Positions 3,860-8,335 of a stretch of DNA of 64,000 nucleotides are shown piece after piece. The stretch lies in the NCBI RefSeq assembly GCF_030531065.1, contig NZ_JAUNOQ010000001.1:62001-126000 (forward strand), given 5' to 3'. Numbering within the stretch: the first letter of the stretch is position 1; each line of letters opens with the position of its first letter. The notes beneath the pieces were generated by a model, which did no database searches, had not been told where the DNA came from, and was given only the letters and a program-made list of their open reading frames with translations. The stretch comes from Phascolarctobacterium sp. (lineage in GTDB: Bacteria > Bacillota > Negativicutes > Acidaminococcales > Acidaminococcaceae). The position numbers were made by a program, and so were the translations under genes.

Positions 3860-3925
3860 ATGTTTGTACTCACTAAGAAGTGCTTGCCTAGCAAGCGAAA
3901 ATTTTGCGAGAGGTGTAAAGGTGAA

Positions 3926-4702
3926 ATGAAAAAATTATTAGCTTTAGTTATGGGCCTGATGATGATGTTAATGATGGTTGCCGGCTGCGGCAGCGACGGC
4001 CCGAAAAAAATGGTTATCGGCCTGGACGATAATTTTGCGCCCATGGGCTATCGTAACGAAAAGAATGAAATCGTCGGCATGGATATTGATTTGGCTCGCG
4101 AGGCCTGCAAACGCGCCGGGATGGAGGTTGAATTCAAGCCTATTGATTGGGGCGCTAAGGAAGCCGAGCTGAAATCCAAACGCATCGACGCTATCTGGAA
4201 TTGCTTTACTGTTAATCCGGAGCGCGAAAAAGTTTACGGCCTGTCCAAGCCTTATATGGTTAACGCCCAGCTGGTAGTAGTACCTAAAGATTCTTCCATC
4301 CAAAAAATTGCCGACCTCAAGGGTAAGGTAGTTGCCGTGCAGGACGACAGCACCGGTTCTTATCTGCTGGAGCTGCCCGAAAACAAGGAATTAAAAGACT
4401 CCTTGAAGGATTACCGCAAATACCCGGACTTTGCCGCTATTTACATGGAGCTGGATAATAAGCGCGTGGACGCCGCTATTGTCGACGCCGTTCTGGCCCG
4501 CGGTTATTACGACAAACTGAAACCGGGACAATACAGAATTTTGGATGAAAACATGGGCGACGAGGTTGTAGCTATCGCTTTCCGCAAGGACGATAAGGAA
4601 TTTCTGCAGCGCATCGACAAGGCTATGGATGAAATGAAGAAAGACGGCACCTGCAAAAAGATTTCCGAAAAATGGATGGGCGCCGATATTACCAAATATT
4701 AA
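3926..4702 (+). CDS. Polar amino-acid ABC transporter, substrate-binding lipoprotein
   Basis: Family-3 solute-binding protein that delivers a polar amino acid to the permease and ATPase encoded downstream. The mature start ATG at 3926 gives an MKK signal peptide with the lipobox MVAGC, so the protein is a lipoprotein tethered outside the inner membrane. Family signatures include MDIDLAREACKRAG, the substrate-site segment NCFTVNPEREKVY and the domain-crossing stretch VAVQDDSTGSYLL. Separate promoters precede this gene and the permease, with a terminator between, so binding-protein excess can be set independently. The ribosome site overlaps GAGAGGTGTA at 3908-3917, which is complementary to the candidate sRNA at 6354. 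Confidence 0.9.
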   Translation: MKKLLALVMGLMMMLMMVAGCGSDGPKKMVIGLDDNFAPMGYRNEKNEIVGMDIDLAREACKRAGMEVEFKPIDWGAKEAELKSKRIDAIWNCFTVNPEREKVYGLSKPYMVNAQLVVVPKDSSIQKIADLKGKVVAVQDDSTGSYLLELPENKELKDSLKDYRKYPDFAAIYMELDNKRVDAAIVDAVLARGYYDKLKPGQYRILDENMGDEVVAIAFRKDDKEFLQRIDKAMDEMKKDGTCKKISEKWMGADITKY

Positions 4703-4835: not shown

Positions 4836-5480
4836 ATGGATTACGTTTTGAGAATCATCCCCCAGATGATGGAGGGCTGTGTAGTTTCCTTTCAGGTTTT
4901 TCTGATTACCATTGTGTTAAGCATTCCTTTGGGAATTTTGCTTAGCCTGGGCCGTGTGTCCGGCATTAAGCCCTTGCAGAAGCTGATTGGTTTTTATGTG
5001 TGGGTGCTGCGCGGTTCGCCGCTGATGCTGCAAATCTTTTTCGTTTACTTTGTGCTGCCGTCCGTAGGCGTGCGCCTGCCCGATTTTGAATCGGCCATCG
5101 TGGCTTTTGTTTTGAATTATGCAGCGTACTTCTGCGAAATTTTCCGCGCCGGTATTCAGGCTATTCCCCAGGGGCAATACGAGGCCGCGCATACCCTGGG
5201 CATGAATTATGTGCAGACCATGCGCCGCATTATCCTGCCCCAGGTAATCCGTATCATTCTGCCGCCTATCAGCAACGAAACTATTACGCTGGTTAAGGAT
5301 ACGTCCCTGGTTTATGTTTTGGCGATGAACGATTTAATGCGCACAGCGCGTAATCTGGTGCAGCGCGATTTCAGCATTACTCCTTTTATCGTAGCGGCAG
5401 TTTTCTATCTGGCGGCTACGCTGGTGCTGACCGTGCTGTTTGAGCGTCTGGAAAAGCACTTCTCCAGATACGACCAATAG
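4836..5480 (+). CDS. Polar amino-acid ABC transporter, permease
   Basis: Membrane subunit of the HisM/GlnP type (about 214 residues, five predicted membrane segments). The conserved coupling-helix EAA loop is visible as YEAAHTLGMNYVQTMRRII..PQ, and the N-terminal block WVLRGSPLMLQIFFVYF is typical. I choose the ATG at 4836, which has ATGGAGA 7 bases upstream; an in-frame TTG at 4809 and ATG at 4824 are alternatives. It lies 12 bases upstream of the ATPase gene and forms its membrane partner. Confidence 0.9.
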   Translation: MDYVLRIIPQMMEGCVVSFQVFLITIVLSIPLGILLSLGRVSGIKPLQKLIGFYVWVLRGSPLMLQIFFVYFVLPSVGVRLPDFESAIVAFVLNYAAYFCEIFRAGIQAIPQGQYEAAHTLGMNYVQTMRRIILPQVIRIILPPISNETITLVKDTSLVYVLAMNDLMRTARNLVQRDFSITPFIVAAVFYLAATLVLTVLFERLEKHFSRYDQ

Positions 5481-5492
5481 GAGGAGCCATAG

Positions 5493-6251
5493 ATGAATAA
5501 AATCAAAGCGCAAAATATCTGGAAAAATTTTAATAAGCTGGAGGTGCTCAAGGGCATCGACCTGGAGGTCAACGAGGGCGAGGTAGTAGCTGTTATCGGT
5601 CCGTCCGGCGGCGGTAAAAGCACGCTGCTGCGCTGCCTGAATAAGCTGGAAACTGTCGACCGCGGCAGTATCACCATCGACGGCGAGGTTCTGTGCCGCG
5701 AAACCGGTTCCGGTGCGGAATATGTAAACAAGAACGATGTGCGCCGCGTGGCCTGTAAAATGGGCATGGTGTTCCAGCAGTTCAATTTGTTTCCTCATAT
5801 GACGGTGCTGCAGAATCTTATCGAAGCGCCCGTAAACGTACAGAAGCGCGATAAAGCTCAGGCTATTAAGGAAGCGGAGGCGCTGCTGGCCAAGGTTGGC
5901 TTGTCCGATAAGCGGGACGAGTACCCCCGCAAGCTGAGCGGCGGCCAGCAGCAGCGCGTAGCCATCGCCCGCGCTTTAGCTATGAAGCCGTCCATTATGC
6001 TGTTTGACGAGCCTACCTCTTCGCTGGATCCGGAGCTGACGGGCGAGGTTTTGAAAACCATGCGCGAGCTGGCCGAAGAAAAAATGACTATGGTGGTAGT
6101 AACGCACGAGATGGCCTTTGCCCGCGAAGTGGCGACGAAGGTTGTGTTTATGGCTGACGGTCATGTGCAGGCGCAGGGCACGCCGTCAGAGATTTTCGAT
6201 AATCCGCAGAACGAGCGCTTGAAGGCTTTCTTAAACGTAATTCTCAAATGA
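5493..6251 (+). CDS. Polar amino-acid ABC transporter, ATPase
   Basis: 252-residue GlnQ/HisP-type ATPase. Walker A is GPSGGGKST (about residue 35), the Q-loop sits in [11 protein letters not shown], the signature is [15 protein letters not shown] and Walker B is [14 protein letters not shown], followed by the switch His in VTHEM. An AGGAGGAG ribosome site lies just upstream. Together with the genes at 3926 and 4836 it makes a complete importer for an amino acid (glutamine, glutamate, arginine or similar; specificity cannot be read from the sequence). Confidence 0.93.
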
Positions 6252-6258
6252 ATATTTC

Positions 6259-6295
6259 ACAGCCGTTGGGTTTGCCGCCCGGCGGCTGTTTTTTC
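6259..6295 (+). terminator. Intrinsic terminator of amino-acid transporter operon
   Basis: ACAGCCG and CGGCTGT arms (6259-6265 and 6283-6289) with a T-run directly after. Confidence 0.85.
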
Positions 6296-6353
6296 ACAAA
6301 CATGTTACTAGCTGGACTAACTTTGGTCATATCCATTTGCTACAATAGTAATC

Positions 6354-6482
6354 GGAGAAAGGAAGAACCCCTTGAGCGAAGCAAGCGCTTCTTTCTAACG
6401 ACTCCACTAAACATATCTTTTCATCATACACCTCTCCTTAAATTACGCCGTACAGCACGCTAACGTACGGCGTAATTTTTTT
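6354..6482 (+). ncRNA. Candidate trans-acting small RNA with anti-Shine-Dalgarno region
   Basis: An extended -10 element TGC-TACAAT (6338-6346) predicts a start near 6354; the -35 is poor. The transcript would have three parts. First is a long 5' hairpin (GGAG.AAA.GAAG pairing with CTTC.TTT.CT and CTCC, about 6354-6413). Next is an unpaired pyrimidine-rich stretch ending ACACCTCTCCTT (6428-6439), complementary to AAGGAGAGGTGT-type ribosome sites. Last is a perfect 12-bp terminator stem (AATTACGCCGTA 6441-6452 with TACGGCGTAATT 6466-6477) running into seven Ts. No plausible protein is encoded. The segment 6427-6436 pairs over 10 bases with the ribosome site of the binding-protein gene (3908-3917) and over 8 bases with that of the Na/Pi symporter (9285-9292). 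Existence as an RNA is inferred from architecture only. Confidence 0.55.
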
Positions 6483-6504: not shown

Positions 6505-6640
6505 ATTAGAAATTAGTCTCCCCTGCAAGGGAAGGAGAGCCGCCGTTAGGCGGCGGAGAAGTTGCGCGCAAGCACGCGCTAAATTGGGTAGAACCCTGGC
6601 AAGAGCGGCCGCGGAAGCGGCCGAATTAAGACGGGCGTGG
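6505..6640. repeat. Chain of short hairpins, REP/MITE-like
   Basis: At least three palindromes follow each other: an opening TCTCCCC..AAGGAGA pair, GCCGCC-gtta-GGCGGC, a GCGCGC/GCGTGC-rich pair and GCGGCC-gcggaa-GCGGCC. Composition and opening (TCTCCCC) resemble the elements at 46512 and 59912, suggesting a dispersed non-coding repeat family. Confidence 0.45.
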
Positions 6641-6701
6641 GTTTAGAACGAACCTTACATAAATTTTGCTAATTTTTGCGATAAGTCTAACTAATTTACT
6701 C

Positions 6702-6729
6702 TTGCCGGGGGGGACAAGTGTGGTATAAT
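6702..6729 (+). promoter_or_regulatory. Promoter with G-tract spacer
   Basis: TTGCCG (6702-6707), 16-bp spacer containing seven Gs, and extended -10 TGG-TATAAT (6721-6729). The spacer closely resembles that of the promoter at 63973-63999 (both have a G-tract then GACRAGT). It would start the structured RNA at about 6737. Confidence 0.65.
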
Positions 6730-6736
6730 GTATCCA

Positions 6737-6862
6737 AAGCAAGGTGCGGACGTGAGAGATTGCTCTGTCAGGGGTGGCAGAGAGTTAAAAAAGTCCGCTG
6801 CGAGTTATACTCTTTCCTTGCTGGCTGTTTGAGCTAGTGGGGCTGGGTGCCTACCAGTCCTA
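6737..6862 (+). ncRNA. Candidate structured RNA of unknown family (or long porin leader)
   Basis: Starting 7-8 bases after a good -10 box, the sequence can fold into an outer stem AGCAAGG (6738-6744) with CCTTGCT (6816-6822) and an inner stem GCGGAC (6746-6751) with GTCCGC (6793-6798). This encloses the hairpin CTCTG/CAGAG; a small GAGT/ACTC hairpin sits between the closing strands. Further 3' are CTGGCT/AGCTAG and GGGCTGG/CCAGTCC hairpins. There is no open frame of note and no clear terminator, so it may be a stand-alone RNA or the start of a 420-nt leader of porin 1. It is not a 4.5S, tmRNA or RNase P sequence I can recognise; a 6S-like RNA is possible but unproven. Confidence 0.45.
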
Positions 6863-6884
6863 CAAGCCTGCTTATAGAGCATCA

Positions 6885-6960
6885 TCTGCTTTGTTGCGGC
6901 TCCTAGACGTACTCCTAGTACGCCGTCGTCGCCCTTCCTCGCATCTAGCACTTTCTAATC
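6885..6960. repeat. Dispersed repeat with CGTACT-cct-AGTACG hairpin
   Basis: The stretch from the TTTGTTGCGGC block to the CGCATCTAGCACTT block carries a perfect 6-bp hairpin (CGTACT/AGTACG). It shares layout with 59680-59765 (GTTGTCGGC..ATACT-ttt-AGTAT..CTTGCC), suggesting diverged copies of one intergenic repeat. Confidence 0.4.
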
Positions 6961-7066
6961 AATCATTGCTTTACTAATCGCTGAATCGTTTGGCAATAAA
7001 TTTTACCACCCCGACTTCACCCAGTTTATAAATTGTCCGAGAGGAAAAACCTGAACCGCGAAGCGT

Positions 7067-7084
7067 GAGGAAACAAGGCAACTC
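7067..7084 (+). promoter_or_regulatory. Conserved porin-leader stem-loop, copy 1
   Basis: GAGGAAACAAGGCAACTC, 72 bases before the porin 1 start. GAG/CTC (extended to TGAG/CTCA here) closes a 12-nt loop GAAACAAGGCAA that is identical in front of all four porin genes. Confidence 0.7.
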
Positions 7085-7156
7085 ATAAGGAGCGGCGAGG
7101 CGAAGCTTTAAGGACATTTTATAAAAATAAAATAATCCTTAGAGGAGGAAAACAAA

Positions 7157-8335
7157 ATGAAAAAATCCTTAGTACTCGCAATGGCTATGGCATTGGGCGT
7201 AACCGCATCCGCTTACGCAGCCAATCCGTTCTCCGACGTTCCGGCCGGCCACTGGGCATATGACAGCGTAAACAAGCTGGCAGCAGCAGGCATTGTTGAC
7301 GGTTACGGCGACGCTACCTTCGGCGGCGACAAGCTGATGACCCGTTATGAAATGGCTCAAATCGTTGCTAAAGCAATGGCTAAAGGCGCTAACGTAGACA
7401 AACTGGCCGCTGAATTTGCTGACGAGCTGGATACTCTGGGCGTGCGCGTTGCTAACTTGGAAAAGAAAGCTGACGCTGTAAAGATTACCGGTGAAGTTCG
7501 TTATCACTACACTGATACGGATAGAGATTATGGTGCTGGTTATGCAACTAAGCTGCGTTCCCGTATTTGGTTCAACGGTCAAATTAACGATGACTGGACT
7601 TACACTGGCATGTTACAAAACGAGCAAGATCTTAAAGATGACGATGGCGAAGAAACTACAGATTTCCAACGCGCTTATGTAAACGGCAAATTGGGTGGCG
7701 TAGCAGTTCAAGGTGGTCGTTATAATTTGAAAGTTGCTGAAGGCAACGTATATGATAACCGCTTTGATGGCATTCAAGCTTCTTATGGCAAAGACGTTAA
7801 ACTGACCGCTGGTTATGGTAAAGCTGCTCAAAAAACTACTGATGTTGCTGATGAAGTTATCTATGCTGAACTGACTGGTAAAGTAGCTGGCTTGGGCTTA
7901 GCTGCTGGTTACTATAGCTTCAATGATATTGAAGGCATTGATGACTTAGATAACGATATTTGGGCACTGAGCGCAAACTACGCATTTGATAAGAATGTTA
8001 AATTAGGCGCTATGTATCTTAAAGGCGATGATTATGATATTAACGTTGATGATGATGGTTATGTAGTAACCGCATCCTACAAAGGCGCTAAAGCTTCCCA
8101 ACCCGGTTCTTGGGGCTTGGTAGCTAAATACTATGACCAGGGCTTAGGCACTTACATGGATCACACTATGAATGGTGCAGCAGATGACTTGTTTGGCTTC
8201 AAAGGCTACAGCGTATTTGCTAACTATGCTTTGGCTAAGAATATTGTAGCTCAAGTTGAATGGTATGACTTGGAAGATAAAGAAAATGGTGAAGACGCAG
8301 AAACCATTTGGACTCAGGTAGTATTCACTTTCTAA
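7157..8335 (+). CDS. OmpM-type SLH-domain porin, copy 1
   Basis: 392-residue outer-membrane porin of the Negativicutes type. The order is: signal peptide (MKKSLVLAMAMALGVTASAYA), SLH domain (FSDVPAGHWAYDSVNKLAAAGIVDGYGD, to about residue 75) that binds modified peptidoglycan, a coiled-coil stretch (DELDTLGVRVANLEKK), and a beta-barrel of alternating aromatic strands ending in VVFTF, whose last Phe is the assembly signal. It therefore tethers the outer membrane and forms a diffusion channel. The start has an AGAGGAGG ribosome site. The first 110 residues are nearly identical to porins 2-4 while the barrel loops differ; porin 2 is the closest copy. Confidence 0.93.
   Translation: MKKSLVLAMAMALGVTASAYAANPFSDVPAGHWAYDSVNKLAAAGIVDGYGDATFGGDKLMTRYEMAQIVAKAMAKGANVDKLAAEFADELDTLGVRVANLEKKADAVKITGEVRYHYTDTDRDYGAGYATKLRSRIWFNGQINDDWTYTGMLQNEQDLKDDDGEETTDFQRAYVNGKLGGVAVQGGRYNLKVAEGNVYDNRFDGIQASYGKDVKLTAGYGKAAQKTTDVADEVIYAELTGKVAGLGLAAGYYSFNDIEGIDDLDNDIWALSANYAFDKNVKLGAMYLKGDDYDINVDDDGYVVTASYKGAKASQPGSWGLVAKYYDQGLGTYMDHTMNGAADDLFGFKGYSVFANYALAKNIVAQVEWYDLEDKENGEDAETIWTQVVFTF

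Follow-up and report, generated by a model that had tools for sequence, protein, structure and literature searches.

We analyzed a 64,000-nucleotide stretch (the window; G000:C19:62001-126000) of a Phascolarctobacterium genome of 2.37 Mb and 49.6% GC, referred to as G000. An ABC transporter operon on the plus strand of the window encodes a solute-binding protein (3926-4702; Pfam SBP_bac_3, 7e-41), a permease (4836-5480), and an ATPase (5493-6251). The closest NCBIfam models are a cystine permease for the permease and cystine TcyN for the ATPase, but all of these closest named (cystine-type) models score below cut-off, so that cystine is no more than a possible substrate. The operon has a separate terminator (6259-6289), and between the operon and the porin 1 gene (7157-8335) lies, on the plus strand, a predicted small RNA (sRNA) gene, which is the subject of this report. 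The sequence on the porin side contains a ~75-bp stretch (6586-6660) with a 91% identical copy on the same contig (G000:C19:192158-192233). Additionally, porin 1 is preceded by a good extended −10 promoter (TTGCCG-16-TATAAT with TG, 6702-6729) located ~425 nt before its start codon, and by a long leader (6700-7156) without an Rfam match.

Downstream of the operon terminator, the predicted sRNA gene begins with a dedicated, conserved promoter region (6294-6346, plus strand) comprising an upstream box TTCACAAACATGTTAC (about 6294-6309), ACTTTGGTCA (6320-6329), and an extended −10 TTTGCTACAAT (TTTGC-TACAAT, 6336-6346). The extended −10 had been part of the original prediction, and its position proved to be conserved in ten genomes; about 60 bp of the promoter region (TTTCACAAAnnnGTTAC...TACTTTrGnCA...extended −10) could be aligned in all ten. 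A promoter weight matrix detected one good site in the whole G000 genome (74 bits; next best, 16.6), and the absence of a second good site meant that the upstream box did not point to a regulator. A sigma-54 promoter was rejected because the spacing was wrong and the motif was not kept in genus g11 of the ten-genome alignment. From a start placed 7 nt after the −10, we infer a transcript of ~130 nt (6353-6482, plus strand), the fold of which (−35.2 kcal/mol) had a z-score of −5.1 against dinucleotide shuffles. Its 5' domain (6354-6395, plus strand) is variable but structured: the 5' hairpin suggested by the original prediction is present, and MFE folds of the stand-alone homologues show that it is re-formed in relatives despite its variable sequence. 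The genome also carries an Hfq gene (C10:28598-28786; E = 1e-32).

The 3' part of the predicted transcript consists of a near-invariant seed, TTTTCATCATACACCTCTCCTT (6418-6439, plus strand), and an intrinsic terminator (6440-6482, plus strand). The seed is the reverse complement of a Shine–Dalgarno (SD) sequence, a spacer, ATGATG, and AAA. Among comparison genomes, which were mostly MAGs, a DNA search of relatives recovered the element in genus g1 (G001-G003) with weaker matches in other genera, and a pattern search found the 22-mer as a single copy in each of ten genomes, including G000, from genera g1, g11, and g17. Conservation of the seed and hairpins in relatives had been proposed as a check on the sRNA, and the outcome was favorable: the seed was identical at 22/22 positions in nine genomes and at 21/22 in the tenth (G001), each time with the terminator and promoter. 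In shuffled windows, 0 matches to the 22-mer are expected. When the first 21 nt of the seed were scanned against 84,980 species genomes, the matches were nine records of Phascolarctobacterium (Acidaminococcaceae) and a single gene start from Tissierellia (L209); no match occurred in the viral contigs scanned for this core. The Tissierellia match was discarded as an ordinary gene start matching by chance, and a match in genome G066 was discarded as the start of an alanine racemase gene.

In all ten genomes, the seed is followed by an intrinsic terminator that varies in sequence and length while its pairing is kept by two-sided changes; compensatory changes were seen at 9 of 11 consensus pairs in the ten genomes and, among the stand-alone members, at 8 of 14. 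In G000, where a perfect 12-bp stem had been described, the terminator itself was upheld, but the stem is 14 bp long (6440-6453/6465-6478) and is followed by a U-run. The claim that ACACCTCTCCTT is unpaired held only in part: the seed is unpaired in nine of the ten MFE folds, those of the relatives, but in G000 five of its bases are paired to GGAGA at the transcript's 5' end. A covariance model built from the seed and terminator scored the ten members at 74-85 bits, whereas nothing else in 59 family genomes exceeded 34 bits. Its weak matches G005:C7:2019-2077 and G006:C70:88561-88618, both in g1 genomes without the exact seed, contain a seed variant (TCATCATACATCTCCCCTT) and are either diverged members or the antisense of a gene start; the G006 match is probably a gene start, because its orientation relative to the binding-protein gene is opposite. 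No Rfam family scored above or near the cut-off at the sRNA locus. Taken together, the element is almost certainly a real, conserved RNA element.

Neighboring genes agree across genera, which supports the orthology of the element. A pyruvate:ferredoxin oxidoreductase gene lies upstream of it in g11 and g17, a Na/Pi symporter gene lies downstream in g1 and g11 (with porin 1 intervening in G000), and a PerR-like gene lies downstream in g17. In two g11 genomes (G016 and G028) and two g17 genomes (G032 and G070), a 79-codon ORF is located between the shared promoter and the seed, which starts 8-9 nt past the stop codon. Therefore, the seed in these genomes belongs to the 3' UTR of a thioredoxin-like mRNA, and seed and terminator form the 3' end of an mRNA, as in sRNAs of 3' UTR-derived origin. 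The ORF products (L052, L054, L061, and L062) are of the Thioredoxin_3/MTH895 type (Pfam, 7e-16; NCBIfam TIGR00412, 63.3 bits with a cut-off of 62); they lack CxxC, with MTKQA at that position, and are under purifying selection (dN/dS of about 0.09 and 0.02 within genera). Thioredoxin-like relatives without the seed occur across the family, and no seed-like match was found beside them where this was tested. The thioredoxin-like gene adjoins the pyruvate:ferredoxin oxidoreductase gene in some genomes and the PerR-like gene in g17.

The ORF is absent in G000 and four other genomes, leaving the ~130-nt predicted sRNA. A further genome, G071, has only the last codons: it carries the promoter and a short hairpin, and a final 26-nt remnant comprising the ORF end, stop codon, and UTR (TAGAGCAGCTGCAATAGAACAACATC), which is identical to that of G032. 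Because this 3' remnant persists between promoter and seed in the absence of the ORF, the ORF was lost at least in G071, and it is very likely that the element of this genome arose from the thioredoxin-like mRNA through loss of the ORF. In addition, G022 has kept the stop codon and UTR, and g1 has kept TAAACA before ATC. Judging from these remnants, the ORF was most likely also lost in G022 and in the g1 ancestor, with the promoter, seed, and terminator staying in place. The same origin is thus probable for the G000 lineage, although the loss itself is something that we infer there.

We considered three readings in which the element is not a trans-acting RNA. Since the reverse complement of the seed (AAGGAGAGGTGTATGATGAAAA) is an ideal SD and gene start, the conserved strand might be the minus strand, carrying the translation start (AAGGAGAGGTGT ATG ATG AAA AGA) of a short or leader peptide, and the ORF MMKRYV* is indeed common to four genomes. 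However, the minus-strand frames have their first four codons in common and differ wholly thereafter (MMKRYV* in g1; MMKRCC..., with varying lengths, in the others), range from 6 aa to about 100 aa, and run partly antisense to the thioredoxin-like ORF. The codons that they share show zero synonymous changes across the ten genomes, and the conservation is therefore one of nucleotides. Furthermore, both the promoter and the terminator U-run are oriented to the plus strand. For these reasons, we regard the plus strand as functional and a minus-strand start as very unlikely; with its reverse complement forming a gene start, the seed is then an anti-start sequence.

In g1, the element directly follows the ATPase gene, a position that would also suit a cis-acting 3' UTR or attenuator of the transporter operon, or a terminator shared with it. 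This seems extremely improbable, as the operon ends at its own terminator and, in other genera, the element follows either pyruvate:ferredoxin oxidoreductase or the thioredoxin-like ORF. Likewise, the ORF loss in G071 could have left a functionless promoter and terminator of the former thioredoxin-like gene, but the seed and promoter have hardly changed although the 5' part has diverged, and substitutions in the terminator are compensated. Relics do not show this combination, and we give such a reading next to no credence. Conversely, a base-pairing sRNA, as the original prediction had it, agrees with the conservation of seed, terminator, and own promoter in ten genomes. The locus combines an own promoter, an intrinsic terminator with a U-run, a conserved single-stranded seed (partly paired in the MFE fold of G000), and an Hfq gene in the genome, which are features of this sRNA class, and we think it quite likely that the element acts as a base-pairing, anti-start sRNA.

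Based on the seed, we investigated possible targets by scoring its pairing with 2,520 ORF starts of G000, which was read in stretches. Pairing energies were far better at gene starts than in gene interiors. The mean energy against starts was −12.18 kcal/mol (n = 300), better than that of 40/40 dinucleotide-shuffled seeds (mean −10.67, sd 0.40, best −11.65), in agreement with the anti-SD character claimed for it. The 10-base pairing of 6427-6436 with 3908-3917 at the binding-protein gene, also claimed previously, was exact (GAGAGGUGUA/UACACCUCUC). The predicted target site as a whole (3908-3930, plus strand) combines GAGAGGUGUA with GGUGAAA, which immediately precedes the start codon and extends into it, and its energy of −25.2 kcal/mol ranks 9th of 2,514 starts. 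In G001 and G002, the binding-protein start gave −20.7 and −20.0, respectively, energies reached by 2-3% of starts. In G028 (g11), the start has a different sequence (GAGAGGGGUUAUGAUGAUGAAGAU) and gave −25.0, rank 3 of 269 starts in a sample of ~15% of the genome that included the sRNA's own contig and was picked before its contents were examined; the top of this sample is the sRNA's own antisense, without which the binding-protein gene ranks second.

Among 176 ortholog pairs, the binding-protein gene had the best combined rank (permutation P = 0.023). A site motif derived from four genomes, AGAGGNGT(N0-9)ATGA, occurred at the binding-protein start in 6/6 further genomes versus 0.4% of G000 starts, although the six are not independent and the motif is SD-like. 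In g17, where 19 nt of the start are visible, the site has an SD-side match (AGAGGGGT) and the start, and its energies of −10.8 to −15.0, reached by 9-39% of starts, are unremarkable for such a short stretch. In nine of ten genomes, one contig carries both the binding-protein gene and the sRNA, in matching orientation and within 2-17 kb of each other; in G003, they fall on two separate short contigs. These results support the binding-protein gene as target in two genera (g1 and g11), short of proof, and the evidence leans on the SD, which is common to every mRNA. With this caveat, the complementarity inclines us to take the binding-protein mRNA as a true target.

The sRNA could still be anti-start in nature and act on other targets instead, such as folE in g11 or lysA, or weakly on many starts. 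Many starts pair well with the seed, among them the folE start CAGAGAGGTGTATGATGATTGATAAAG in G028 (C1:~2957-2975, L190; −29.8), with a very similar site in G016 (C11:55797-55811), and lysA (−26.8/−20.9), which was second in the two-species ranking. In addition, lipoprotein and binding-protein genes as a target class were not enriched beyond other MKK starts. The binding-protein gene nevertheless came first in the combined rank, despite a start region that has diverged between genera, and it shares a contig with the sRNA, within 2-17 kb, in nine of the ten genomes. We therefore consider exclusive action on other targets rather unlikely, while folE is a possible g11-specific target.

Overall, the region 6353-6482 is likely a gene for a trans-acting, probably Hfq-assisted sRNA that descended from a thioredoxin-fold mRNA and for which the binding-protein mRNA is the best-supported target. 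A signal acting at the conserved promoter would raise the sRNA, which would be transcribed from its own promoter and end at the intrinsic terminator. Hfq may then help the open seed to base-pair with the binding-protein mRNA at its SD and start region; such pairing would block ribosome binding, and uptake by the adjacent polar-amino-acid (possibly cystine-type) ABC transporter would presumably fall. We also slightly favor the view that living relatives preserve an mRNA-to-sRNA transition, as intact mRNA, internally deleted form, and ORF-less sRNAs, in which promoter, seed, and transporter target were kept. The sRNA may tie a redox-flavored locus (beside pyruvate:ferredoxin oxidoreductase and the PerR-like gene) to amino-acid, possibly cystine, uptake.

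RsaE/RoxS-type sRNAs of Firmicutes pair with the SD through C-rich segments; they resemble the predicted sRNA in this respect but differ in sequence and structure, and Rfam gave no match to them. LhrC acts on transporter mRNAs through a UCCC-type seed, whereas the seed of GcvB is G/U-rich. GcvB acts on amino-acid transport mRNAs (PMC9438474). Transporter mRNA targets are thus the likeness between these two and the predicted sRNA, which has a different seed and no Rfam match to either. In alpha-rhizobia, AbcR1/AbcR2 and NfeR1 use unpaired anti-SD motifs to repress the periplasmic binding proteins that serve ABC transporters, among them transporters of amino acids (PMC8844928). With an anti-SD motif directed at binding-protein mRNAs, they are the closest working parallel, by analogy only: their motifs are 8 nt long (CUCCUCCC and UUCCCCUC), whereas the Phascolarctobacterium seed is 22 nt long and spans the SD and start codons, and these sRNAs come from a different phylum, with no sequence homology found (Rfam; for AbcR (alpha-r15), no sequence or structure match above or near a cut-off). 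For the origin, the parallel lies with the 3' UTR-derived CpxQ, SdhX, and MalH/MicX, in which the seed and terminator at the mRNA 3' end are more conserved than the rest (PMC9438474), as they are here. However, those sRNAs arise by processing from, or begin next to, a gene that remains intact, whereas the Phascolarctobacterium sRNA stands alone after ORF loss in some lineages.

The open-licence literature searched and Rfam yielded no sRNA of Phascolarctobacterium, and nothing comparable came up for Veillonella or other Negativicutes; the sRNA is most likely previously uncatalogued. It brings a clear seed and a testable target. Its relatives form a natural series for how bacterial sRNAs arise, in which a protein gene disappears but the promoter and 3' UTR that flanked it persist, and a comparison of ORF-containing with ORF-less forms would tell whether the RNA function came first.

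Some strong pairings within G000 were not retained as targets. The pairing with the Na/Pi symporter start suggested by the original prediction exists, but at −14.4 it is ordinary, being reached by about a quarter of gene starts, and does not support a target role. feoB gave −30.2 in G000 but −16 to −17 in G001 and G003, and is not a conserved target. The best energy in G000 (−31.1) belonged to G000:C19:33468 (L123), yet this start paired weakly in G001 and G003. These two failures in relatives indicate that strong pairings arise easily and that top matches from a single genome are unreliable. In G000, the C19:33468 start pairs with the seed as 7+13 bp with a 4-nt bulge; its product has 237 aa and no Pfam match, and among 15 relatives it occurs only in the three sRNA-bearing g1 genomes.
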